DNA of 64,000 nucleotides from Bacteroidota bacterium (GCA_030706745.1 JAUZNX010000005.1:124001-188000); one strand, 5' to 3'. Shown: positions 24,368 to 37,475, numbered from the stretch's first letter. A program made the numbers and translations. The notes: generated from the letters alone by a model not told the origin.

Positions 24368-24426
24368 TTTAGCGAAGAAACACCCTTCCACCCTATAAAA
24401 CGCGGATTGACCCTTCCGGCGTTGCA
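24368..24426. repeat. first copy of a ~59-bp direct repeat
   Basis: The sequence from TTTAGCGAAG to CGTTGCA recurs in diverged form at 24501-24559. The shared words are TTTAGCGAAG, CCCTTCCA, CGACCCT/TGACCCT and CCGGC. Confidence 0.6.
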
Positions 24427-24500: not shown

Positions 24501-24559
24501 TTTAGCGAAGCGACCCCCTTCCATCTATTACAACGTTGTTCGACCCTCCCGGCATCGCA
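24501..24559. repeat. second copy of the ~59-bp direct repeat
   Basis: This is the partner of 24368-24426, in the same orientation and about 133 bases away. The two differ by several substitutions and at least one indel, so the duplication is not recent. Confidence 0.6.
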
Positions 24560-24752: not shown

Positions 24753-24865
24753 CTCAGTATTGCACCACGCTCTTATCGATCTCTTTGCTCCAGGCGATGA
24801 TGCCGCCGCGGAGATTGCAGGCCTTGGGGAAGCCATTGCGGCGCATGAAATCTACGCGGCCACCG
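24753..24865 (-). pseudogene. copied 3' end of the rhodanese gene
   Basis: About 113 bases match the 3' end of the intact rhodanese gene (25503-25615) at roughly 90% identity, in the same orientation. On the minus strand it still reads through the last ~29 codons (MRRNGFPK, then NLRGGIIAWSKEIDKSVVQY and stop). Homology ends at the stop codon. It has no 5' part, so it is a remnant. Its inner edge overlaps the last codons of the DUF2442 gene. Confidence 0.85.
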
Positions 24866-25112
24866 GTTGCTGATGCGAGCGAAGCATCAGTTCGTAAAGA
24901 TAATCGGGTGCGATGTCGGCGCCGTTTGGCCAGACGATCGTGCTGAGATCTGGCTCTACTCGGACTTTGCGGAATTCGTTGATGTCGCGCAATGGCTCGA
25001 AGTGTCGTCCGGATAGTTCATTCGAAAGATCAACGGTCCCGGTCACACCGTTACTGAACGTGAGTTCGAGCGTGTATCCTGATATGTAACGAACAGCGAT
25101 GACGTATTCCAT
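24852..25112 (-). CDS. DUF2442 protein (antitoxin-like partner of DUF4160)
   Basis: An 86-residue protein with the DUF2442 pattern: a short beta-rich start, a central FSNGVTGTVDLS segment, and a C-terminal IVWPNGADIAPDYLYE motif. DUF2442 and DUF4160 genes are commonly adjacent and are thought to form a toxin-antitoxin-like pair, though the biochemistry is not settled. The ATG at 25112 almost touches the DUF4160 stop, so the two are an operon. Its 3' end runs into the copied rhodanese tail, which suggests the gene was placed there by a recombination event. Confidence 0.86.
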   Translation of the reverse strand: MEYVIAVRYISGYTLELTFSNGVTGTVDLSNELSGRHFEPLRDINEFRKVRVEPDLSTIVWPNGADIAPDYLYELMLRSHQQPVAA

Positions 25113-25113
25113 T

Positions 25114-25398
25114 TTAGATCAATGGTTCGATTTTCTTGATTGGCTGGTCATTCAGTAGCGCATTCCAGTTGTCCATAAGTTCCTCCCGGTGATCGGAGGC
25201 CCATTCGAGAACAGCGGAGTGAATGCGGCGAGGAAGGTTGCCGGCCAGAAGTCGGAGGTCTTGAATCGAGTACTTACCGAAGTACTCCGCATATCTCGCA
25301 TGGAAATGCGGCGGCCCGTGGTCTTTCTCGTACATTGTGATTACGATTCCCAAGAATCTGCTGATTTCTGGGATGATCTGAAAACGTCGTCTTGCCAA
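25114..25398 (-). CDS. DUF4160 protein (toxin-antitoxin-like partner)
   Basis: A 94-residue protein with the DUF4160 signature: PEISRFLGIVITMY near the start, then DHGPPHFHARY with a His/Pro-rich core, and a C-terminal LEWASDHREELMDNW. The role is not established; the pairing with DUF2442 suggests a toxin-antitoxin-like or stress module. No ATG is in frame before the domain; a TTG at 25398 is the likely start. The 105 bases before it, up to the intact rhodanese stop, contain no gene. Confidence 0.86.
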   Translation of the reverse strand: MARRRFQIIPEISRFLGIVITMYEKDHGPPHFHARYAEYFGKYSIQDLRLLAGNLPRRIHSAVLEWASDHREELMDNWNALLNDQPIKKIEPLI

Positions 25399-25503
25399 AG
25401 AAGATGCTCAGCAAACGCAGAAGAGCCGCCTCGCGGCTGGGTCGAGGATTCCACACAGCACACGATACCAAGGCGGAGGAGCCACGTGACGCGGACGTTC
25501 CGC

Positions 25504-25827
25504 TCAGTATTGCACCACGCTCTTATCGATCTCTTTACTCCAGGCGATGATGCCGCCGCGAAGATTGCGGGTCTTCGGGAATCCGTTGCGGCGCATGAAC
25601 TCAACGGCCATACCGCTCCGTCCGCCCAGCTTGCAGTGTACAACGATCTCGGCCTCCGGATCGAATTCGGCCAAATGCTGTGGCAGTGAGTTCAGCGGAA
25701 TGAGCTTGCCGCCAATGTTCGCGATATTATATTCGGATGGCTCGCGCACATCGATCAGCGTGAACTCGCGGCCCTGATCGCGCCACTCCTTTAACTCATG
25801 AACGGTGATTTCAAACGGGATTTGCAT
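25504..25827 (-). CDS. rhodanese-like sulfurtransferase, single domain
   Basis: This encodes 107 residues of one rhodanese domain, with the family segments LIDVREPSEY near 24-33 and the active-site loop HCKLGGRS with Cys65. It should carry a persulfide and transfer sulfur in the cytosol; the partner is unknown. The ATG at 25827 starts the first helix directly. The last ~113 bases are duplicated at 24753-24865 on the far side of the DUF4160/DUF2442 pair, so this gene was probably the recombination site for that module. It lies 129 bases before nuoN's stop, on the same strand. Confidence 0.92.
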   Translation of the reverse strand: MQIPFEITVHELKEWRDQGREFTLIDVREPSEYNIANIGGKLIPLNSLPQHLAEFDPEAEIVVHCKLGGRSGMAVEFMRRNGFPKTRNLRGGIIAWSKEIDKSVVQY

Positions 25828-25956
25828 AGCGTAATGATGTGTAATTGGCGGCGTGGGATTCGCAAGGCGTAAACGGGTAATGCGTACCGCGTGGTTTCTT
25901 AATAAGTTTTTAACAATGTAGTGTTGAGGAATGCCGCATGGACGCACAACATACTT

Positions 25957-27702
25957 CTAGAAATTGAAGAATCGTACGACCCCGCTCGCAAAGTCGATAA
26001 GCGGCTGGAAATAGACGCCCAATGCAATCACCGGAATCACGAATGCAAACAACAAAATGCGCTGCAACAGTGGATAGCGGAGAGTGGAGAGAGGATAGCG
26101 GGCATCCGGATTATCCACTACCCACTTTCCACTATCCGTTACGCCCTGGAGTGCCAGTTCCTGCAGGGGTCGCTTCAGGAACATCGCGCTGGCAATTCGC
26201 AAGTAATAGTAAAGTGATACGATCGAATTCAGGATCGCCGCGATTGCGAGCCAGAGCCAGGGCATGCCGTGCGTTACCGGATTCGGTGTCAGAATCGCGG
26301 TGAAGAGGTAGAACTTGCCTATAAATCCTGCCGTCAGTGGAATGCCGGTGAGCGAGACCAGAAAGATTACGAACGCGGAGGCCACGATTGGCGAGCGCGC
26401 GCCGAGTCCGCGGTAGTCATCGATCTCCTCCGAGCCGATCTTATTCTCGATCAACATGATAACATAAAACGCGCCCAACTGCATGAAGAGATATGTTGCG
26501 AGATAGATCATGATCGCGACCACTCCGGGCGGAGAGAAGAAGAGTCTTGCCGGAATGGAGGCACCGCTGACTGCAAGTGCAGCCAGAATATATCCGGCAT
26601 GGGCAATCGAACTGTATGCCAGCAATCGCCGCACGTTCGATTGCAGGAGGGCGGCCAGGTTACCGACCGTCATAGTGATGACGCTTAGCGCTGCAATCAG
26701 TAGCGGCCAGTTGATCACCGGCAGGTTTTGCTCTGCACCGAGCGGGAATGTAAAGATAACGAACCGGGCGAGCAGCCCAAAGCCTGCCGCTTTCGACGCC
26801 ACCGAAAGCAAGGCTGCAACCGGCGCTGGTGCGCCTTCATAGACATCCGGCGTCCAGAAGTGGAATGGCACCGCACTAATCTTATAGCACATGCCGACGA
26901 GCACGAGTGCGGTTGCAAGCCACAGAATCAGAAGGTTCGATCCTGTGTGAGTAGCAGGCGAGAGTGCCAGCACCTGGCGAATCGCGATGATCTGTGTCGT
27001 GCCAGTCAGTCCATAGAATAGCGAGAAGCCATAGAGCATGAGTCCGCTCGAAAGCGCGCCGAAGAGAATATACTTGAGCGCCGCCTCTGATGCGTGCGGT
27101 GTGTCCTTTGAAAATCCGGCCAGGATATATCCTGCGATTGAAACCAGTTCGAGCGAAAGATACATCATGAGCAGATCGGTCGAGGCCGGCATGAGGAAGA
27201 GACCAACCATCATACCGAGCAAGAGCGAGGAGTAATCGCCAAGCCTTCGCGAACGCGCCATGAGTTCGCGGGATGCCAGCGACATACAGAGCACCAGAAT
27301 GCCTGTCACCGCGATGAGCAGCTTGAAGAATACCGCAAAGTTATCGGCGACAGCCATGCCATATCCACTCACCGGTTCTCCATTGCGTACATTCGGCGCG
27401 AACAGTGTTTGCGTGTAGGGGAAGATTATTGCGCCCGATTTCCACTCACGCGGGTGGCCCGGATCGACGCCATGCCACTGAAGCGCGGAGGCGAACCCCG
27501 CAAGCACAAGCACGAGAATGCTGAGATACACGGTCGCTTTCTGGCCGATGTCATTCCGTGCAAGCGCGTTGAGCAAGATGACCAACAGGAAGCCGCCGGT
27601 CAATATTACTTCCGGCAAAAAATGAATAACGCTGTATTGCACATACCACTGGACCGTCGTGGCAATTGCAGAGAGCGACTCGGGCAATCTTGGTGGAGGC
27701 AT
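25957..27702 (-). CDS. nuoN: NADH-quinone oxidoreductase subunit N
   Basis: The 581-residue polytopic membrane protein is an antiporter-like proton-pumping subunit of complex I. It is slightly long for NuoN (usually ~480-500). Part of the excess lies near the C-terminus, where an in-frame hairpin-forming phrase (26071-26138) adds about 22 polar residues such as SGKWVVDNPDARYPLSTL between two membrane segments. The ATG at 27702 starts 9 bases after nuoM's stop. It is the last gene of the nuo locus. Confidence 0.93.
   Translation of the reverse strand: MPPPRLPESLSAIATTVQWYVQYSVIHFLPEVILTGGFLLVILLNALARNDIGQKATVYLSILVLVLAGFASALQWHGVDPGHPREWKSGAIIFPYTQTLFAPNVRNGEPVSGYGMAVADNFAVFFKLLIAVTGILVLCMSLASRELMARSRRLGDYSSLLLGMMVGLFLMPASTDLLMMYLSLELVSIAGYILAGFSKDTPHASEAALKYILFGALSSGLMLYGFSLFYGLTGTTQIIAIRQVLALSPATHTGSNLLILWLATALVLVGMCYKISAVPFHFWTPDVYEGAPAPVAALLSVASKAAGFGLLARFVIFTFPLGAEQNLPVINWPLLIAALSVITMTVGNLAALLQSNVRRLLAYSSIAHAGYILAALAVSGASIPARLFFSPPGVVAIMIYLATYLFMQLGAFYVIMLIENKIGSEEIDDYRGLGARSPIVASAFVIFLVSLTGIPLTAGFIGKFYLFTAILTPNPVTHGMPWLWLAIAAILNSIVSLYYYLRIASAMFLKRPLQELALQGVTDSGKWVVDNPDARYPLSTLRYPLLQRILLFAFVIPVIALGVYFQPLIDFASGVVRFFNF
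26071..26138. repeat. imperfect inverted repeat inside the nuoN coding sequence
   Basis: Two 27-28-base arms (26071-26098 and 26111-26138) pair with about five mismatches around 12 bases. The arms are made of GGATAGTGGAAAGTGG-type words. The insertion keeps the nuoN frame and would give a strong hairpin in the mRNA. Confidence 0.75.
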
Positions 27703-27711
27703 TGCTTCCGG

Positions 27712-29367
27712 CTAGTTCAGCAATGCCGCGCTGCCAACCACAGCGCTTGGAGGTACGTGGGCGTGGACAACCAGAACGAGTTGATTCACACTGGCAGTCA
27801 TAAGATCGACGAGCGGCCCCGGATAGACACCGAGGGCAACGATAATCACGACGAGCGGAATCAGCGTTGCCAGTTCGCGCGGTGTTACATCTGTCAGGCC
27901 GTTCCATTTCTCCGGCAGCGTCCCGAAGAACATCCGCTGAAGTGTCCACAGAAAATAAGAGGCGGTCAAGATGATGCCGAACGTCGAAAGAATGGTCCAG
28001 GTCTGCCAGGTTTGGAAGGATCCGATCAGGACGAACGCCTCGCTGACAAACATATTCAACGCGGGCAACCCGAGCGCCGCAAAAAATGCAATGACCACGA
28101 ACGCGAAGTACTTCGGCATTTTGTTGGCAAGTCCGCCGAACTCGAGAATGCCGCGCGTATGCGTGCGGTCGTACAGCACGCCGACGAGCACGAAGAGCAT
28201 CGCGGTTACAATACCATGATTGACCATCTGGAGCGATGCGCCGAGCAACCCCTGCGTGTTCAACGCCGCAATGCCGAGCAGCACGTATCCCATGTGGCTG
28301 ATCGAACTATAGGCGATCAGTTTTTTGAAATCACTCTGCGCCATTGCACAGAACGCGCCATAGACGATATTGATAAAGCCAAACATGGCGAGATACCAAC
28401 TGAGCGCAATTGCAATGTCGGGGAAGATGCCGAGACAGAGCCGGATAATTCCGTAGCCACCCATCTTGAGCAGTACACCGGCCAGCAGAACCGAGATTGC
28501 GGTCGGCGCCTCGACGTGCGCATCCGGCAGCCAGGTATGAAACGGCACCATCGGAATCTTGATGGCGAAAGCGAAAAGCAATCCGATGAATCCGACATAG
28601 CGCCAGGTCGTGCCAATGCCCGAGAAAATGCTGCCCTTCAGGATCGCGGCGGGGTTCATCATTTGCAGCATGTTGAAGGAGTGATACAACTCCGGCTTGT
28701 GCGTGACCGGACTCATCACCAGACTATGCGTGCCGGGCATGTAGAGCATCACTTCCGTCGAGAAGTATAGCCCGATCATCACGAGCAACATCACGACCGA
28801 GCCGAGCAGCGTGTATATGAAGAACTTGATCGCTGCATACTCCCGGCGTGCGCCTCCCCAGATACCAATGAGAAAATACATCGGGAGCAGCATGACCTCC
28901 CAAAAGATATAGAACAGGAAGAAATCCAGCGCGCAAAACGTCCCCATCATGCCCACATCGAGCAAGAGGAACATGAGAAAATACCCTTTGACGTTGCGGT
29001 CGATGGAGAAGCTTGCAAGCGCTCCGATCGTTGTAATGATCGCTGTCAGCAGGACCAGTCCAACCGAGAGTCCATCGATCCCCATGAAGTAATCGATCGA
29101 AACGTTGCCGAAGACACCGAGGCCGGCAAGTCGAATCCACGGAAGACGCTCGACAAACTGAAAGCTATGGACATCGTTGACTCCGGCCAGAGCGGTATTG
29201 TAGTTAAGGCAAATCACAACTGCAATTGCGACTTGGGCCAGTGTCACGGCAACGGCAACGCTGCGAAGCGCCATGATGCGCTCGCGTGGCACGAAGGCGA
29301 GCGCGATCATTCCCACCAGCGGCAGGAAGGTTATCGCGCCAAGTAACGGAAACTCTGAAATGGTCAA
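27712..29367 (-). CDS. nuoM: NADH-quinone oxidoreductase subunit M
   Basis: The 551 residues form a multi-pass antiporter-like subunit of complex I. Conserved NuoM segments include FFLFYIFWEVMLLPMYFLIG, with the functional Glu in the WE pair, and FHTWLPDAHVEAPT. The start is a TTG at 29367, since no ATG precedes the first helix. Upstream lies a T9SS protease gene instead of nuoL, so the usual nuoL-nuoM adjacency is broken. The 158-base gap before it contains phrase-like repeats but no gene. Confidence 0.95.
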   Translation of the reverse strand: MTISEFPLLGAITFLPLVGMIALAFVPRERIMALRSVAVAVTLAQVAIAVVICLNYNTALAGVNDVHSFQFVERLPWIRLAGLGVFGNVSIDYFMGIDGLSVGLVLLTAIITTIGALASFSIDRNVKGYFLMFLLLDVGMMGTFCALDFFLFYIFWEVMLLPMYFLIGIWGGARREYAAIKFFIYTLLGSVVMLLVMIGLYFSTEVMLYMPGTHSLVMSPVTHKPELYHSFNMLQMMNPAAILKGSIFSGIGTTWRYVGFIGLLFAFAIKIPMVPFHTWLPDAHVEAPTAISVLLAGVLLKMGGYGIIRLCLGIFPDIAIALSWYLAMFGFINIVYGAFCAMAQSDFKKLIAYSSISHMGYVLLGIAALNTQGLLGASLQMVNHGIVTAMLFVLVGVLYDRTHTRGILEFGGLANKMPKYFAFVVIAFFAALGLPALNMFVSEAFVLIGSFQTWQTWTILSTFGIILTASYFLWTLQRMFFGTLPEKWNGLTDVTPRELATLIPLVVIIVALGVYPGPLVDLMTASVNQLVLVVHAHVPPSAVVGSAALLN

Positions 29368-29489
29368 AACTTAGAGTGAAAAACTGATAGCGACGGTAGC
29401 TCGTGGGTCGTGAAGTGAAGCGGCTGCTTGAAAATTATTTAAGTCTCATGCAGCATCCATGACGGCCGACCCATTTGCTACGGCTCGTC

Positions 29490-29525
29490 ATAGTTCATTC
29501 TCCACGGCTCGTTCTCCACGATCCG
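29490..29525. repeat. phrase-like repeat (TTCTCCACGGCTCG words)
   Basis: TTCATTCTCCACGGCTCG is followed by TTCTCCACGATCCG just after the stop of the T9SS protease gene. This is another short two-word phrase of the kind seen elsewhere in this window. Confidence 0.45.
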
Positions 29526-32513
29526 TTACCGAATGACGCTGATCGCACGCGTGAGTTTGATGCCGCGATCCGTGGTGAGCATAACATAATACACGCCATC
29601 AGCCAGCGGAGTGGAGTGGAAATTCACCGTCTGCGCTCCTGGTCCGGTTTCAATGCCGTTCAAAAGAACAGCCACTTCTCTGCCAAGTGCATCGAGTACC
29701 ACAAGCCGAACCTGCTGGCGCTCCGGCAGATCGAATGTGATTTCCGCGTTTTGCTCGCATGGGTTTGGTGCGATCGAAAATGCCAACGGTTGTGAGTTCG
29801 GCTCAACGGACGCCGGTGGCAGTTGTTCAGCCATCGATTCCGAATATGTTGCGACGCCGGTACCCGAGGAAATCATGCTGAGTGTCAACTTTCCTTGCCC
29901 GCGATAGACGCTTAGCACTTCTGCGCTGGCGGCATCGTACCCAATCGGGAATCCGATCGGAGACCAGGTTGCGCCAAAATCCGTCGTCCGAAAGACTCCA
30001 GAGTCGCTGGTAACAATACCCATGTTGCTATTTGGCACGAAGGCAACAGCCCCCGGGATCATTTTAGCGACTGGCATGGGCATCGAAGTCCACGTTATCC
30101 CTCCGTTGGTCGTCTTCTGCATCCCATTGACTCCGCTGGTCCCGCTTGCGGACGTCACCTTCCTAAAGCACGCGAAGCCATGGAGCGTATCATCGTCCAT
30201 CGCAAGCGATAACGAGTTTGGATAATTGGTCGAGGCCGGAGTCCACGTTTTCCCTCGATCGCTCGTGTGCCAGATGCGCGAGCTGTTCGAGCCGAACCAG
30301 CCATAATCGCCGACCCATGCCGTCGCATTATTCCAACTGGCTTCTCCGGATTTCATATTATCCGGTGCAGTCGGACTCAGATCCCAGGTCTTGCCGCCGT
30401 CGGAGGAAATCCCGATACCCCACGAATTAATGGACGTAGTCGAAGCTGGGTCTCCGATCAAAATACCGTCCATTGGTACTCCATTCTTCGGGGCAAAGAA
30501 GTGGATGGTATTGACAAAAGCCGTGAAGGAGGAGACGTCGGACTGCCCAAACGTCTTGCCGCCATCGGTCGTCCATAAGACGGACGCTGGCCCGCCGCCT
30601 TGCGGTCCGGTACCGAACCACGCAGTCGTGGAGTCAAAAGCTTCAACGTCATACGGAGCTTGCGAGCGGTCCCAGACCGCCGCTGTGTCACTCCACGCTC
30701 CGGCGGTCTCGCGGGCATAGTCGGCGATGGCCACACCGCCCGTTGTCGATTCATTTCCGAACGACGCCCAGGCGGCGGTATGCGACGTTCGTTTGAGGCT
30801 CGAACCAGCCGGTGCGACCTGCTCAACCCGGAAGCCAGGCACCCGCGTCAGCGGGATGTACATCGTCATCGTATCGTGATAGTCGCCACCGTCTGTCAAA
30901 AAGAATCGGATGGGCAGATTGCCTTCGCTAAAAATACCGTTGCGTGTGATTTGAAAATTCCCCTGGGCCGTGACATTCAGTCCCACGCTGCCAAGGGTGG
31001 CCACTGTTCCTGATCCAGAATAGCCAGTGCCGCTGATGAGTTTAGCCGTGATGCCACTTCCGGCAGCCGTTACATTCTTGAACGTGACACTCAGCGCATG
31101 GGGAGCGCCAACGGTACGCAGCGAATCACTTGCAACGCCATCGATGGAGTAACCGGTCACGAGAAGGCCCGGAGCGGGTATCGCTCTGAGCGCGCTATCG
31201 GCATCGACACAGCCCCAGAAATCATACTGATCTGCTGGCTGCACATTGTTCAAGCAGGTCTGAATAATCTGTCTTGCGATGAATTGCGGTGGCCAGCTTG
31301 GGTGGAGCGAAACTACAAGTCCAGCAACACCCGCCGTCAGTGGTGACGCAAAGCTGGTCCCATCCTCTGCATTATAAACATTGCTGCCAGGATAGGTGCA
31401 ACTAAGAATACCGGACCCAGGCGCGAAGACGCTGACGCTATGACCGAAGTCTGAATAATATGCCGGCCCGTCGGACTGATCCGTCGCTCCGACCGAAAGT
31501 ACGCCGGGACCATTCGAAGGATAGAAAGCCGTTTTATCATTGCTCGTCCCATTGTTCCCGGCCGCGGCTACGACGAGGGCATTCCGCGCTGTTGCTTCTT
31601 GAAGTACCGTGTTGCCAAAAGCGACGTCCGTTCCTGAGACAGGACCGCCCCAGGAGCAATTGATCACCCGCGCTCCGTGCGTGGACGCGTAGTGAATGCC
31701 CTCATAGCCACCAGAAATGTTTTGCGCGTCAGTACCAGCACACTTGATGGCTATCAAACGGCAACCGTACGCAGCTCCGGCGATTCCGACAGAATTATTG
31801 CCTGACGCTGCGATACATCCGGAAGTATGCGAACCATGCGTCGCAGCTGGATCATCCGGACTCGGGTCGTTATCCGGCTGGAACGGCTCACCAGCGGAGG
31901 CATTGACCTTTCCAACCACATCGTAACCAAGCTTGATGGCGTTCATCAGATCTTCGTGCAGCATATTGAATCCATCATCCACATCCGCGATGAGCACCGT
32001 GTTATCGCCCGTTGTTATGTCCCACGCGCTGAACAAGTGCATCTTGTTCAATGCATATTGCTGCGAGATATATTGGTCGTTCGGTGTCTTCGATAGCGGG
32101 AATAAGTATCGCACCGAACCACACTCGACCTGGCCAGTGCTTTCGAGCATGGTCAGCGCTGCTCTTGGGTCGATCGCTCGGTTTGTATAATAGACAACAT
32201 ACATTCGGTCGATTCCGAGATTGTGGGTGATTGCATCGTTCGGCGCCTCGGCATCGAACGGAAGCGTGGCCGTCGCATGAAGCTGATCGAGTATGTGCGT
32301 GAAGGCGCTCGCCACACCGGTTGATTGCGGCACGATTCCAACGTGGGTATATCCCTCCAAAGCTTTCGAGCCCGGCCGCAGCTTGATATAGATTATGCCA
32401 GGCGCATACGGCGTTGTAACCACAGGTGCTGCGCTCGAGGGGTGTCGGTCACGTCCAACCGCAGCAATGGATGCGATAGAAAGAACAAGAACGGCGAGGA
32501 TACTCTGCTTCAT
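29526..32513 (-). CDS. subtilisin-like S8 serine protease with T9SS type A sorting domain
   Basis: About 995 residues: a signal peptide, an S8 domain with Asp near 177 (LIADVDDGF), His near 225 (THGSHTSG) and Ser near 386 (DGTSFASPLTAG), then beta-sandwich regions. BNR/YCF48-like propeller blades follow, with repeated GGKTW, GKTWTP and GGITW words. It ends in a T9SS type A sorting domain (from SIAPNPCEQ; VVLDALGREV; LADGVYYVML). It should be a secreted surface protease. The ATG at 32513 is preferred to a longer start because it begins the signal peptide. It sits between nuoL and nuoM on the same strand, an unusual place for a protease. Confidence 0.92.
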   Translation of the reverse strand: MKQSILAVLVLSIASIAAVGRDRHPSSAAPVVTTPYAPGIIYIKLRPGSKALEGYTHVGIVPQSTGVASAFTHILDQLHATATLPFDAEAPNDAITHNLGIDRMYVVYYTNRAIDPRAALTMLESTGQVECGSVRYLFPLSKTPNDQYISQQYALNKMHLFSAWDITTGDNTVLIADVDDGFNMLHEDLMNAIKLGYDVVGKVNASAGEPFQPDNDPSPDDPAATHGSHTSGCIAASGNNSVGIAGAAYGCRLIAIKCAGTDAQNISGGYEGIHYASTHGARVINCSWGGPVSGTDVAFGNTVLQEATARNALVVAAAGNNGTSNDKTAFYPSNGPGVLSVGATDQSDGPAYYSDFGHSVSVFAPGSGILSCTYPGSNVYNAEDGTSFASPLTAGVAGLVVSLHPSWPPQFIARQIIQTCLNNVQPADQYDFWGCVDADSALRAIPAPGLLVTGYSIDGVASDSLRTVGAPHALSVTFKNVTAAGSGITAKLISGTGYSGSGTVATLGSVGLNVTAQGNFQITRNGIFSEGNLPIRFFLTDGGDYHDTMTMYIPLTRVPGFRVEQVAPAGSSLKRTSHTAAWASFGNESTTGGVAIADYARETAGAWSDTAAVWDRSQAPYDVEAFDSTTAWFGTGPQGGGPASVLWTTDGGKTFGQSDVSSFTAFVNTIHFFAPKNGVPMDGILIGDPASTTSINSWGIGISSDGGKTWDLSPTAPDNMKSGEASWNNATAWVGDYGWFGSNSSRIWHTSDRGKTWTPASTNYPNSLSLAMDDDTLHGFACFRKVTSASGTSGVNGMQKTTNGGITWTSMPMPVAKMIPGAVAFVPNSNMGIVTSDSGVFRTTDFGATWSPIGFPIGYDAASAEVLSVYRGQGKLTLSMISSGTGVATYSESMAEQLPPASVEPNSQPLAFSIAPNPCEQNAEITFDLPERQQVRLVVLDALGREVAVLLNGIETGPGAQTVNFHSTPLADGVYYVMLTTDRGIKLTRAISVIR

Positions 32514-32544
32514 ATCGGTATCAAATAAGATATACGGAAAGCCT

Positions 32545-34758
32545 TTATGGCAGCGCAAGAACAACGTATCGAATGACTATGAAGATCGCAATTACAGATG
32601 CAACAACCCACGCGAGGTAGGTTTGAATTCTGCCGGATTGCAGCGAGCGGATCATCAGCCCTAAGAACTGCATGGCTGCACCCGCGAAGGTTACTATGCC
32701 ATCCACGACAAACCGGTCGAAATAACCCAAAATTCGCGAGAGGATAACAGTCATGCGGGCAGTTGCATTCACCACGCCATCTATGACCGCTTCGTCTGCC
32801 CATGCTACAATGCGCGAGCTTAGCAGAACGGTGCCGACCACTGCAAAATTGTAGACCGAATCGATATAATATCCTCGAAAAACAATTTCATGAAGAATTC
32901 CGAGCGTGCGGCTTCGCGGCTTGCTCGGGGTTCGTTTGGAGCGAAGTAGATAGAGCCACAACGCGAGCAGTAACCCCGTTACGGCGGAGCCGAGTGCGAG
33001 CCACATGGAGAGCGGCGTCAGCGACCGCGACTTCTCACTAAGCGCAAGTTGATGCGGCATTGGCGATTCCAGCACGCTTGTTGCGGACGGTGCGATCGCG
33101 AACCCGAACGGCTCCGAGTGAGGAGTCACATTTAATCCAGTTCGGAACGGCGGCGCCGTTTGTGGGGGAATGACTTGCACGGTCGTCTTAACCCACTTCG
33201 TGAGAAACCGGCCAGTCTCCGGATTGAATGGATTGATCGAGTACCAGATCCACAAGGATGCGGCGGCGAGCAGTAACAGCGGGGCTGTCATGACCAGCGG
33301 TGATTCGCGAATGCGATCGTACAGAGTGCGGCGCGCGGGCGGTCCAAAAAACGTCAGGAAGGTTAGCCGCCACATATAGGCTGCTGTCAATATTGTGACG
33401 ATGAAACCGATCACGGGCAAGGCCATGGCAATTCCGCCTTGTAGTTCGCCGTATGCAAGCGTTCCAGATAGGATCTCATCCTTTGACATCATGCCGGCCA
33501 GGAACGGGAGGCCAGTGACGGCAAGCGTTGCGACCACAAACGAGTATGCTGTCAGCGGCATTTTCTTTCGCAGACCTCCGAGCGTGCGAATGTCCTGCGC
33601 ATCCCATTCGTGATCGTTCGTTTCGTGCTGTGCCCGATGGACCGCATGAATCACGGAGCCTGCGCCAAGGAACAAGCATGCCTTGAAGGCAGCGTGGGTA
33701 ACGAGATGGAAAATGCCTGCGCTAACCGCGCCGGCTCCGATGGCCATCATCATCAGCCCAAGTTGCGAAACCGTGGAATACGCAAGTACGCGCTTGATGT
33801 CTGTCTGCGTGAGCGCAATCGTTGCTGCAAGCACACTAGTAAATGCCCCGGTACATGCGACGACCAGCATGGCATCCGCGGTCAGGATCGGAAAAATACG
33901 GGCCATTAAATAGACGCCGGCAGCGACCATCGTGGCGGCATGAATCAGTGCGCTGATCGGCGTTGGACCTTCCATGGCGTCCGGCAACCACACGTGCAAT
34001 GGAAATTGTGCGCTCTTCGCAATTGCGCCACCAAAGAGCAGCAGACCGGCGATCGTGAGTGTGGTCTCCGGAGAAAAACCAAGAAGGCTGAACGTGATCG
34101 GGAGTCCTTGTCCGACAAGGCCAAAGATCTCACGCAGGTTGAACGTATGAAATTCTCCATCGAGGAGTAGAATCCCTGTGAACAGCACCGCATCGCCAAT
34201 GCGATTCGTGATGAATGCCTTGTTCGCTGCGTATTGTGGAGCAGGTCGTTCGTACCAATGAGCGATCAGCGCCCAACTTGAAAAGCCAACCAATTCCCAT
34301 GCGCCATAGAGCATGAACAGATTGCTCGATAGGACGAGGCCAAGCATGGCGAATGTAAAAATGCCAAGGAAGGCGTAATACCGCGCATATCGCTCGTCGC
34401 TCCGCATGTACCCGATCGAGAATACATGGACAAGGACGCTGATGCCGGTAACTACGACCATCATGATCGCGGTGATATTATCGATAAGCACGCTGGCTGG
34501 AATTGTCAGCGGACCGAATCCCGGAATGATGCCAAATCGAATCCAATCTATACTCCACTCATAGGGCCCAAGGGCAGCGGCACCCGTCTGAAGTTTGAGC
34601 CACGCGATATATAAGGAGAGTCCAAAACTAAACGCAACTGCCGGTATGGAAATGAGGTGCGCTCGTTGATCGAGCGCTCGCTGATTGAATATGACTAACA
34701 CGAACGAGAGCAGCGGAAGCCCGAGCGCGACGAGTGCAAGAAGTAGCAGTTGGTCCAT
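32545..34758 (-). CDS. nuoL: NADH-quinone oxidoreductase subunit L
   Basis: The 737-residue multi-pass protein is the largest antiporter-like subunit of complex I. Conserved segments include LYGAWELVGFSSW and FPLHVWLPDAMEGPTP, then KRVLAYSTVSQLG. It is longer than the usual ~620-650 residues; the extra part lies in a polar, Pro/Thr/Ser-rich loop near 485-600 before the last membrane helices. The ATG at 34758 lies 17 bases after nuoK's stop. A T9SS protease gene follows 31 bases after its own stop. Confidence 0.95.
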   Translation of the reverse strand: MDQLLLLALVALGLPLLSFVLVIFNQRALDQRAHLISIPAVAFSFGLSLYIAWLKLQTGAAALGPYEWSIDWIRFGIIPGFGPLTIPASVLIDNITAIMMVVVTGISVLVHVFSIGYMRSDERYARYYAFLGIFTFAMLGLVLSSNLFMLYGAWELVGFSSWALIAHWYERPAPQYAANKAFITNRIGDAVLFTGILLLDGEFHTFNLREIFGLVGQGLPITFSLLGFSPETTLTIAGLLLFGGAIAKSAQFPLHVWLPDAMEGPTPISALIHAATMVAAGVYLMARIFPILTADAMLVVACTGAFTSVLAATIALTQTDIKRVLAYSTVSQLGLMMMAIGAGAVSAGIFHLVTHAAFKACLFLGAGSVIHAVHRAQHETNDHEWDAQDIRTLGGLRKKMPLTAYSFVVATLAVTGLPFLAGMMSKDEILSGTLAYGELQGGIAMALPVIGFIVTILTAAYMWRLTFLTFFGPPARRTLYDRIRESPLVMTAPLLLLAAASLWIWYSINPFNPETGRFLTKWVKTTVQVIPPQTAPPFRTGLNVTPHSEPFGFAIAPSATSVLESPMPHQLALSEKSRSLTPLSMWLALGSAVTGLLLALWLYLLRSKRTPSKPRSRTLGILHEIVFRGYYIDSVYNFAVVGTVLLSSRIVAWADEAVIDGVVNATARMTVILSRILGYFDRFVVDGIVTFAGAAMQFLGLMIRSLQSGRIQTYLAWVVASVIAIFIVIRYVVLALP

Positions 34759-34775
34759 GGAGCGTGTCGCGAATA

Positions 34776-35087
34776 TCAGTCGTGCAGTTTGTTCGCTTCG
34801 TTAACGTTGATCGTCTGCGACCGGCGATAGAGATTTAGCACAATGGCGAGCGCAACCGCCGCTTCGCATGCGGCGATCACGATCACGAACATTGCCGCCA
34901 TCTGTCCGCCGAAGTTAATTGCACCGTACCGCGTGAATGCCACGAAATTGATATTGGCGGCATTCAGGATCAGTTCGATACCCATGAGCACGGCGATGGC
35001 ATTCTTCCGAGTCAGCATCGTGAAGATCCCAAGCACGAGAAGAATCGCGCTGAGTACAAGAAAGTGGGGAAGGCCTACTGGGATCAT
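34776..35087 (-). CDS. nuoK: NADH-quinone oxidoreductase subunit K
   Basis: This is the 103-residue three-helix NuoK subunit of the complex I membrane arm. Conserved residues are visible in MGIELILNAANINFVAF, with the Glu used in proton transfer, and in FVIVIAACEAAVALAIVL, with the second Glu. The ATG at 35087 is chosen because it starts the first helix and overlaps the nuoJ stop by four bases (ATGA); much longer readings upstream are only nuoJ in another frame. Confidence 0.95.
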   Translation of the reverse strand: MIPVGLPHFLVLSAILLVLGIFTMLTRKNAIAVLMGIELILNAANINFVAFTRYGAINFGGQMAAMFVIVIAACEAAVALAIVLNLYRRSQTINVNEANKLHD

Positions 35088-35707
35088 GCGGTTTCCTTCC
35101 TCGGTATAGTGGACGAAACGGATTTGTCTTGACGCGCAATCGTGGCCGCGCCGATAAGTGCAACAAGCAGCACGACGGAGACTAACTCGAATGGCAGAAC
35201 ATAATCGGTCATTGCGAGCTTGCCGATTTCTGAGGCGGTGCCCTCGCTCCCGTTCTTGTCCAGGATTTCGCGGGGCGTGCCCTGCACTTGTGATGTCACC
35301 TGCTGAACGGCATCGTGACTCCATGGGCTGCGGTTCCACGGTGGTTGATCGTATCGGATCCAATGGCCCGAGATCGTAAGCGAGGCGATCAGAAAGAGGA
35401 GCGCGCCGCACAAAATTAACGCGGGGATGCGCGATCGTACTGCCGCGCGAATGTCAATGTTTGAAACGCGGTTCGTAAGCATCACGCCAAAGACAAGAAG
35501 CACGAGGATACCGCCAACATAAATCAGGAGTTGGGCGATGGCAATGAAATCCGCACTCAGGATAACATAAATGCCCGCAATTCCGAAAAATGTAAATAAC
35601 AGCGAAAATGCGGCATGGACGATATTGCGCGAGAACGCGACCAGCACCGCACTCGTGACGATCGCGATTGCAAACAGATAAAAAAATATGTCGAAGAGTC
35701 CTGGCAT
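35084..35707 (-). CDS. nuoJ: NADH-quinone oxidoreductase subunit J
   Basis: The 207-residue membrane subunit J of complex I starts with a hydrophobic helix and contains the FTFFGIAGIYVILSADFIA segment typical of NuoJ, followed by QLLIYVGGILVLLVFGVML. The C-terminal part adds a polar loop and one more helix. The ATG at 35707 overlaps the nuoI stop by one base (TAATG), and the 3' end overlaps nuoK by four, so I, J and K are translationally coupled. Confidence 0.95.
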   Translation of the reverse strand: MPGLFDIFFYLFAIAIVTSAVLVAFSRNIVHAAFSLLFTFFGIAGIYVILSADFIAIAQLLIYVGGILVLLVFGVMLTNRVSNIDIRAAVRSRIPALILCGALLFLIASLTISGHWIRYDQPPWNRSPWSHDAVQQVTSQVQGTPREILDKNGSEGTASEIGKLAMTDYVLPFELVSVVLLVALIGAATIARQDKSVSSTIPRKETA

Positions 35708-36381
35708 TATTTATTGTGGTCGTCGCCGCTCCCGGGCCCGGCTCCCGGCGCCTTAAATGGCGGAGGCTTCATTCCGGGTTTGGCTACGAACGGTGGTTTC
35801 ACGGTCCCTCCGGAGGCTTGCTGTTGCTCGGCCACTTTTGCTGCGCGCTCCGCCGCTTGTTTGGCACGAAGCGCGTTGGCTTCAACCTCCCACTTCTTCC
35901 AGTTTGCGGTGTGCTCTTCGGCTTCCGATTTGTCCATCGTGGCAAAGTGATAGATCAGGTTCTCGCGCTTGTCCTCGGCGAACTCAAACACTTCGGTCAT
36001 CACGATACACTCCGTCGGACACGGCCACACACACAGCGAGCAATAGCAGCACTTGGCCATGTCGATATCGAACCGCGTAACCCACAGCGATTTCTTCTTC
36101 GCATTGCGGGTGGTAATGCCAAGATCTTCGCCCGGTACGGACTTTACTGTGTCGATTTCGATGCAATCGACCGGACAGGCGCGCGCGCATTTATCGCAGC
36201 CTATGCAATCGTCCATATTGACGTACAACCTGTTGCGCGCTCGTTCGGGCAGCACGTAGGCATCGCGCGGCGCAGGATACTGGCGCGTGACCTTCTTTCG
36301 CAGAAGGTGACGAATCGTGATCCGAAGGCCCTCGGAGGCCGTCAGCAGTGCACGCGAAATGTCAGTGAAGTATTTTCCCAC
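35707..36381 (-). CDS. nuoI: NADH-quinone oxidoreductase subunit I (two 4Fe-4S clusters)
   Basis: The 224 residues carry the two ferredoxin-type motifs of NuoI: CIGCDKCARACPVDC and CCYCSLCVWPCPTEC, which bind clusters N6a and N6b that lead electrons to NuoB. The C-terminal ~60 residues are Ala/Pro/Lys-rich and not typical. The start is a GTG at 36381. The first 63 bases (GKYFTDISRALLTASEGLRI) have a diverged copy at 37151-37213 on the other side of the PIN/antitoxin pair, with homology ending at the start codon. The present 5' end may therefore have arrived with that pair. Confidence 0.95.
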   Translation of the reverse strand: MGKYFTDISRALLTASEGLRITIRHLLRKKVTRQYPAPRDAYVLPERARNRLYVNMDDCIGCDKCARACPVDCIEIDTVKSVPGEDLGITTRNAKKKSLWVTRFDIDMAKCCYCSLCVWPCPTECIVMTEVFEFAEDKRENLIYHFATMDKSEAEEHTANWKKWEVEANALRAKQAAERAAKVAEQQQASGGTVKPPFVAKPGMKPPPFKAPGAGPGSGDDHNK

Positions 36382-36449
36382 GGAGTTTGAAAATGGCGGA
36401 AAGCCTGAACACGCCTCAGGAGAGGAGCAATCCGTAAGGGCCGGAGCCT

Positions 36450-36857
36450 TTATGAAAATTGGAGAAGAAACTCCGATGATGTTATGGCGGGGATTCTGCC
36501 AGACGCGAAGTCCCTTACGTTGCTCGTTATGATAAACGTGGAAGAAGCAGCATGGGCCGCTGCCTCGACGATAGCATCTTCAAAATCTGCGATCGCGCTA
36601 TTCCGAGCCTCTGTCAGCATTGCCTTGTTCACCGGCACAATTTCGAGTACATCCAAAAGTTGCCCCGATAGCTCCCGCGCTTTCGAGATTCCAAGCGACT
36701 TCTTCAGAATATAATAAATCGTGGGAGCAGCGTGAGAGGGAATGTTGCCGGACACCTTCCATCTTCGGCAAAGACTGAGCACCGCCATCGAGGAATCGAA
36801 GTCACCCCGAAGCAGGTAGATGTCGAGAATGACGTTCAGGTCAATCGTTGCGACCAT
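36450..36857 (-). CDS. PIN-domain protein (VapC-like toxin candidate)
   Basis: A 135-residue PIN-domain protein. The acidic metal site is visible: Asp6 in TIDLNVILD, Glu/Asp at 91-94 in DFEDAI, and Asn113/Asp116 in TSNVRDF. PIN proteins of this size are usually ribonuclease toxins of VapBC-type pairs. The ATG at 36857 overlaps the upstream antitoxin-like gene by 17 bases, as in many toxin-antitoxin pairs. It lies inside the nuo locus, between nuoI and the small gene after nuoH, and is bracketed by nuoI 5'-end copies. It is in the transcription direction of nuo. Confidence 0.9.
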   Translation of the reverse strand: MVATIDLNVILDIYLLRGDFDSSMAVLSLCRRWKVSGNIPSHAAPTIYYILKKSLGISKARELSGQLLDVLEIVPVNKAMLTEARNSAIADFEDAIVEAAAHAASSTFIITSNVRDFASGRIPAITSSEFLLQFS

Positions 36858-37101
36858 GCTGGAGGAACTTCTCCGTCAAGGATTGCATGCGCAGAGCCTC
36901 GAGGTCACTATCCGGCGGCAAAATGCCCGCCCATGATTGGATCATAGGATCGATGTCCCGATCGGTGGCATGACGAAGCGTGCGAACGAGGTAATCGAAG
37001 ACATCATCGACCTTCATCTTCGTCCGTTCGGCAAACGAGCGAATAAACGCCGCCTCGGAAGCCGGCAAGTCGATGGTAAAATGCTCAGATCCATTCATCA
37101 T
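36841..37101 (-). CDS. antitoxin-like partner of the PIN-domain protein
   Basis: An 86-residue acidic protein with an N-terminal FTIDLPASEAAFIRSFAERT segment of the kind found in ribbon-helix-helix antitoxins, followed by helical, acidic C-terminal sequence. I cannot name the family with certainty. Position and overlap with the PIN gene make an antitoxin role likely. The ATG at 37101 is followed by a second ATG; which is used is unclear. Autoregulation would be expected for such a pair but no operator is evident. Confidence 0.78.
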   Translation of the reverse strand: MMNGSEHFTIDLPASEAAFIRSFAERTKMKVDDVFDYLVRTLRHATDRDIDPMIQSWAGILPPDSDLEALRMQSLTEKFLQHGRND

Positions 37102-37150
37102 AAACTAAAATGTTTCGGCAATGGGATTAGTTCGTTACAGCAAGGATGGC

Positions 37151-37213
37151 GATCCGAAGGCCTTCGGAGGCCGTCAGAAGAGCTCGCCAGATATCTGAGA
37201 AGTATTTTGTCAC
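37151..37213 (-). pseudogene. copied 5' end of nuoI (21 codons)
   Basis: On the minus strand GTG at 37213 opens a 21-codon stretch, TKYFSDIWRALLTASEGLRI, matching the start of nuoI at 36319-36381 with about 83% base identity (roughly 11 differences in 63). The outer homology stops right at the start codon and the frame then continues without nuoI similarity. It lies 38 bases after the stop of the small gene that follows nuoH, where an undisturbed nuoI would be expected to begin. Confidence 0.85.
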
Positions 37214-37250: not shown

Positions 37251-37475
37251 TCACACATCTTCAAAGATGCGGTCCGGCGTCACCAAACTTCCAAATGCCC
37301 CAATGACTTGCAGAAGGTGTCCCGCGCCAGCAATGATGGCGGTATGAGTGAGAAGTGGAAACAAATCATCCAGGTGTTTCCACTCCGCGATCCATCCAAC
37401 AGCGGCGAGGACGGTCCCGAAGAAGAAGAGCAAGGTGTAGATGAGTCGTCGCCGTCGCATACCGTGTTGCGTCAT
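37251..37475 (-). CDS. small membrane protein in the nuo locus
   Basis: A 74-residue protein with a basic start and two hydrophobic segments (about 11-28 and 40-62). I do not recognise the family. Its ATG at 37475 overlaps the TGA of nuoH by four bases (ATGA), so it is translated with nuoH and is very likely a real, co-regulated gene. It may be an accessory subunit or assembly factor of the complex, but that is only inference from position. Confidence 0.7.
   Translation of the reverse strand: MTQHGMRRRRLIYTLLFFFGTVLAAVGWIAEWKHLDDLFPLLTHTAIIAGAGHLLQVIGAFGSLVTPDRIFEDV

Follow-up and report, generated by a model that had tools for sequence, protein, structure and literature searches.

The stretch analyzed here, called the window, is 64,000 nucleotides (nt) of the genome of a Bacteroidota bacterium, G000 (3.81 Mb in 30 contigs), and corresponds to G000:C5:124001-188000; positions given without a contig label are window coordinates. 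It holds two unrelated small gene pairs of toxin-antitoxin (TA) type, a DUF4160/DUF2442 pair and a PIN pair, each lying between a complete gene, for a rhodanese-domain protein and for NuoI, respectively, and a diverged copy of that gene's own end. The host is a soil-type bacterium; among named relatives, a Candidatus Kapaibacterium metagenome-assembled genome (MAG) is the closest, and the remaining genus members are MAGs filed under Bacteroidetes or Ignavibacteriae. Because the relatives found are MAGs, G000 is probably one as well, with a stated completeness of 99.5% and contamination of 0.8%. G001 is its nearest relative, G004 is of the same genus, and G007 is of the same family. The two loci comprise the following features.

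24753-24856, minus strand: fragment of the rhodanese gene 3' end, repeat copy 2 (95/104 identical to copy 1)
24852-25112, minus strand: DUF2442 gene, putative antitoxin of DhiA type (PF10387, 5.3e-17; NCBIfam DhiA)
25114-25398, minus strand: DUF4160 gene, putative toxin of DhiT type (PF13711, 1.5e-22; NCBIfam DhiT)
25503-25606, minus strand: 3' end of the rhodanese gene, repeat copy 1 (base-by-base comparison)
25504-25830, minus strand: intact rhodanese-domain gene, host of the first insertion (Pfam PF00581, 2.1e-14; orthologue likewise follows nuoN in other members of the genus and family)
35707-36381, minus strand: intact nuoI, host of the second insertion (Fer4 domains, synteny)
36314-36381, minus strand: nuoI 5' end, repeat copy 1 (base-by-base comparison)
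36450-36857, minus strand: PIN_3 gene, putative toxin (PF13470, 1.6e-14)
36841-37101, minus strand: antitoxin-like partner open reading frame (ORF) overlapping the PIN gene (no Pfam match; position only)
37146-37213, minus strand: fragment of the nuoI 5' end, repeat copy 2 (55/68 identical to copy 1)
37251-37475, minus strand: small ORF o74 between nuoH and nuoI, marking the resident side of the site (conserved in relatives)

Compared base by base, both loci have the anatomy that a first-pass annotation of the window had described, with each module set between an intact gene and a diverged copy of its end. At the rhodanese gene the repeat is the last 104 nt including the stop codon (91% identity, ungapped), and homology stops 1 nt past that codon; at nuoI it covers 68 nt beginning at the GTG start (81%, ungapped), with the boundary exactly at the start codon. 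The limits had been placed at the stop and start codons, in close agreement with these positions, and divergence at 10 to 17%, where we measure 9% for rhodanese and 19% for nuoI. Third codon positions account for 7 of the 9 differences between the rhodanese copies and 8 of the 13 between the nuoI copies. The rhodanese fragment also supplies the stop codon of the DUF2442 frame. From their family matches, the adjacent DUF4160 and DUF2442 genes are a predicted type II TA system, DhiT/DhiA, NCBIfam DhiT and DhiA each giving one match among the cargo set. The PIN pair is VapBC-like insofar as its toxin matches the PIN_3 family; its partner is unclassified and antitoxin-like by position.

To place these loci in context, local repeats were scanned in 1.64 Mb of G000 (43% of the genome) and in 0.4 Mb each of G004 and G007, with ORFs and genes called within this analysis and host-gene identities checked with Pfam wherever families exist. 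In G000, 228 direct repeats were found against 14 inverted ones, none of which reaches 60 bits; as the rhodanese and nuoI repeats score 148 and 65 bits, the window duplications are not due to chance. The further examples that the first-pass annotation expected are present. Copies of the gene end enclose DUF433 and DUF5615 genes at trmD, Unstab_antitox and ParE genes at mutS, and HicA and HicB plus a glyoxalase gene at purF. At a GltD-like gene they enclose HigB and a partner, and a third, older copy encloses a TMEM175 gene. Downstream of rpoC lies an array of three TA inserts; in each case a paralogous gene ending in PPGCYFARLGTEVAKFCVVE precedes the insert, and a fragment of that end comes after it. 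A search starting from TA genes added Phd and VapC at a 340-aa gene (repeat of 103 nt, 91%) and MazF at a DUF58 gene, where the repeat is gapped and weaker. Repeat length across the cases is 34 to 116 nt. The sampled part of G004 has a 170-nt gene-end copy around an ORF6N-domain gene plus one other candidate, and that of G007 has no gene-end duplication that stands up.

Several of these sites are more elaborate. The rpoC-downstream array (G000:C2:162401-167658) contains several paralogous secreted-protein genes with the same C-terminus, and the breakpoints of two of its fragments almost coincide. Beyond the trmD fragment (G000:C1:22632-23332) is a second small module, a DUF2283 gene with a broken partner ORF, so that two TA-like modules are stacked at one gene end. 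The 5' flank of purF carries HicAB in G000, BrnT in G001, and another small ORF beside a glyoxalase gene in G002, and is a second hot spot like nuoI.

The cargo is strongly biased. In 14 intervals called automatically, 12 of the 21 small genes are members of TA families, compared to at least 4 of 90 small genes drawn at random from this same sequence (p=1e-7). Leaving out the genes of the window gives 9/17 against at least 4/90 (p=4e-6), and with the control count tripled p is still <0.001; the enrichment p-values are somewhat optimistic, as the two members of a pair do not count independently. Enrichment of TA genes between the copies had been set beforehand as a check, and it holds from the opposite direction too. 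Among matches to PIN, HicA, DUF433, ParE, and DUF4160 in G000, with the two window loci excluded, a direct repeat straddles 9/25, versus 12/279 other small genes (p=6e-6), and about half of the latter 12 also look like TA genes. Gene ends account for seven of the nine straddled matches; one is at a dispersed repeat (C19), and one is unclassified (C1 546.8 kb). For ParE, all three matches in the sampled part of G000 lie within gene-end duplications. The same straddling test applied to TA loci of Escherichia coli K-12 gave 0/9.

No signature of a dedicated recombinase accompanies these insertions, in line with the first-pass annotation, which had seen no integrase, transposase, or inverted repeats and had named a recombinase-type repeat as a possible separate cause of each insertion; no such repeat was found. 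No transposase or integrase ORF was noticed among the insert ORFs, no inverted repeat overlaps the two window inserts, and the junctions have no terminal inverted repeats. Among the loci there is neither a common core nor a conserved junction motif, and the joints between cargo and fragment differ. A site-specific integrase that recognizes attachment sites in gene ends, and that acts in trans or has been lost, would have the attraction that phages and islands in gene ends likewise keep the host gene whole, with a diverged end on the other side of the insert. Such an enzyme would have to serve many unrelated targets, 5' and 3' ends alike, with no shared core, and cargo that is mostly <1 kb, and we regard this explanation as very improbable. 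Separately, AACCGGTG occurs within ~15 nt of the fragment at both the rhodanese (~24857-24875) and mutS (G000:C1 ~126047-126065) junctions, which we take as coincidence. An integron attC site was considered for the GTGTTAG motif before nuoI and rejected, as the companion GGATTGCTC is at chance level in the window and the inserts have no common recombination site. Plain tandem gene duplication followed by deletion was also set aside, since it would not put TA genes between the copies so consistently. Clustering of mismatches towards gene ends, as a trace of crossover, is not significant overall.

Comparison with relatives shows where the insertions have and have not occurred. Empty sites with a single copy of the gene end are seen for trmD in G001 to G006, for mutS in G002 to G005, and for nuoI in G004, G005, and G007 to G012. 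The order nuoD-nuoH-o74-nuoI is kept in genus and family, with an o74-nuoI spacing of ~40 to 140 bp in the genomes with an empty nuoI site, compared to ~870 bp in G000, 1.4 kb in G001, 3 kb in G002, and 0.7 kb in G006; the G003 contig begins inside the nuoI region. At the nuoI site of G001 lies a different module, Phd/YefM plus PIN, adjoined by its own 38-nt nuoI fragment at 97% identity. In 74 nuoI loci of the wider group, such a fragment was present only in the G001 record. In an Ignavibacteria MAG, the nuoI start recurs ~2 kb upstream as a 160-nt copy at 99% identity. The mutS insertion is common to G000 and G001, with the same junction. Insertions decay after arrival, as the mutS ParE gene of G000 has an internal stop and the G001 mutS contig has no ParE match. 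These parallels bear on the possibility that strain alleles were misjoined during metagenome assembly, which is suggested by the relatives, and probably G000, being MAGs and by copies that differ as strain alleles do. We consider such an artifact highly improbable, as G001 is an independent assembly that has the same mutS junction and a nuoI case of its own, chimerism would not single out TA genes, and the completeness and contamination figures given above argue against it.

Under insertion with long target duplication (ILTD), the module enters, the gene end is duplicated in place, and the fragment then decays. This has the same geometry and repeat size as proposed for restriction-modification systems (PMC3874152), and some pairs, at the GltD-like gene and in the rpoC-downstream array, are 94 to 97% identical. 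Pooled over 13 gene-end pairs, gapped pairs such as DUF58 being excluded, differences number 19, 15, and 61 at codon positions 1, 2, and 3, with no gaps and no internal stops in the fragments. The third-position share of 64% lies between the 44 to 47% expected from in-place duplication with free decay of the fragment (p=1e-4 to 5e-4) and the 77% of orthologues between G000 and G001. Much of the divergence would thus be older than the duplication, one copy being the allele of another lineage, followed by some decay. The trmD fragment lies close to the G001 gene, and the intact end is not its sister. The rhodanese copies resemble each other more than either resembles G001, so that a sister-lineage donor and in-place duplication both fit; the sequence downstream of the rhodanese gene is different in every genus member examined. 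From these comparisons, in-place duplication appears to be rejected for the pooled pairs, unlikely at trmD, and possible for rhodanese and the GltD-like gene. As an explanation of the insertions as a whole, we judge it unlikely.

Three loci suggest which copy arrived. The G001 trmD gene matches the G000 fragment at 77/79 positions and the intact end at 70/79; with G000 and G001 differing by ~17% over the genes compared, this similarity gives the fragment a foreign, G001-like appearance. For purF, G001 sides with the intact end at seven of eight decidable sites, and for mutS the G001 fragment matches G000 at 71/82 and its own gene at 61/75. It is therefore likely, on this allele pattern, that the fragment is the foreign allele and the intact end the native one. 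At nuoI, G001 matches the G000 fragment at 59/68 and the intact end at 57/68, and either copy may be the foreign one.

This polarity bears on the mechanism that the first-pass annotation had named, homology-facilitated illegitimate recombination, in which a linear fragment from a relative, with a TA module beside the gene, pairs within the gene and joins illegitimately in the resident gene end. It would produce the anatomy in a single step with copies that diverge like alleles, it has already been invoked for immunity arrays of the type VI secretion system (T6SS) (PMC5361080), and at nuoI the fragment adjoins the resident o74 and is slightly nearer G001. In its simplest form, the intact end is imported and the fragment is the resident remnant. 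Because trmD, purF, and the G001 mutS locus point the opposite way, and the joining step is rare in experiments (PMC5361080), this mechanism is doubtful, although it deserves to be kept in view. Other parts of the original proposal fare better, namely, a shared integrase-free route, DNA from relatives, and generality, given the many further examples, the strong TA enrichment, copies that have diverged as functional genes do, and the lack of any recombinase repeat among the features found. Transfer of a preexisting insertion, TA module plus fragment, by homologous recombination fits the three informative cases at least as well.

We therefore favor, at about an even chance of being correct, the spread of TA modules among close relatives by homologous recombination anchored in housekeeping gene ends, free of integrase and transposase. 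Incoming DNA with a module and a gene-end fragment would recombine with the resident gene end, leaving the host gene complete and placing the orthologous gene-end fragment of another lineage beyond the module. Its source might be a chromosome already carrying the insertion or a circle with one repeat, and TA cargo may predominate because losing a newly entered module harms the cell. For the first insertion in a lineage, long target duplication and one-sided (homology-facilitated) illegitimate joining are both candidates. Support comes from the repeated finding of unrelated TA modules at unrelated genes, the TA enrichment, the mutS insertion shared with G001 and the parallel nuoI insertion there, the third-position excess, the allele pattern at trmD, purF, and mutS, the missing recombinase signature, and the E. 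coli result.

Several observations weigh against spread by homologous recombination between relatives. Neither a donor genome nor a circular form was seen, and a search of the genus for a near-identical DhiTA cassette yielded just short matches of 74 to 77%. Some inserts are without TA genes, namely, those with peptidase S51 and TMEM175 and two empty ones. The third-position share is also below that of orthologues (p=0.007), so that decay contributes to the differences. The direction of transfer is drawn from three short loci, trmD and purF in G000 and mutS in G001, and the repeats compared are short in general.

A bolder view is that TA modules of this genus are self-homing cassettes, in which module plus gene-end fragment would excise and reintegrate by RecA between the flanking gene-end copies; we think it improbable. 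If true, any relative's orthologous gene end would be a landing site, with addiction supplying the selection, and an addiction pair plus a borrowed piece of a core gene would form an integrase-free mobile element.

Other features of the genome were observed in passing. Within the nuo operon, between nuoL and nuoM (29526-32564), is a gene for a 1012-aa subtilisin-like secreted protein, relatives of which occupy the corresponding position in genus and family members. An intergenic repeat of ~60 nt is dispersed over the genome, at 24368-24426 and 24501-24559, at G000:C4:269106-269163 and C6:3064-3122, and elsewhere, with 14 matches in the scanned part of G000, whereas the sampled parts of G004 and G007 gave no match; one copy sits within an empty gene-end duplication on C4. 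At G000:C1:152458-153427, a two-gene pair of TA-like layout (205 aa and 68 aa) is flanked by a G+C-rich noncoding repeat of 52 to 54 nt at 85% identity. Genes at G000:C1:517327-519929 have a common N-terminus, MATKLTPEEWVTSSGDPSDLGFSIAR, and differing C-termini, together with a short N-terminus fragment, an arrangement resembling a polymorphic-toxin locus with exchange of cassettes.

What moves chromosomal TA modules in the absence of a mobile element is a long-standing question. Several modules in one genome bear a scar of arrival, with sequence long enough for the origin of each allele to be asked. Such scars can be found by a simple repeat scan, and spare gene ends could lead to new addiction or defense cargo. 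Addiction-assisted, integrase-free gene acquisition thereby becomes testable, and it could account for the gathering of unrelated TA families beside the same core genes.

A diverged copy of the target gene's end is also carried by prophages and islands that integrate there, and our cases share with them a complete host gene and a diverged end on the far side. They differ in that no integrase was noticed, there is no common core, the targets are many and unrelated, and the cargo is mostly small. Among the small variable segments of species pangenomes, 10 to 18% are flanked by direct repeats, most of them <30 bp (PMC2884548); these are likewise small integrase-free inserts between core genes, although TA cargo was not singled out there. 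Homology-facilitated illegitimate recombination, known from Acinetobacter, Pseudomonas stutzeri, and Streptococcus, has been applied to T6SS effector-immunity arrays (PMC5361080), which resemble our loci in being integrase free, with a one-sided homology anchor, modules stacking at one site, and displaced gene ends. Unlike in those arrays, the core genes here stay intact, and it is the displaced fragment that seems to be foreign. The geometry itself is already known for restriction-modification gene complexes, for which ILTD was proposed (Nobusato 2000; Furuta 2010; reviewed in PMC3874152); for TA modules, a literature search of limited coverage turned up no such report. As in ILTD, a small addiction-type gene pair lies between direct repeats of ~100 bp with no mobile-element genes, and relatives have empty target sites with a single copy, as at nuoI, trmD, and mutS. 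In contrast to the restriction-modification cases, the cargo here consists of TA modules, a complete gene always contributes one of the repeats with its end, the copies resemble alleles of different lineages more than products of in-place duplication, and many cases occur in a single genome.
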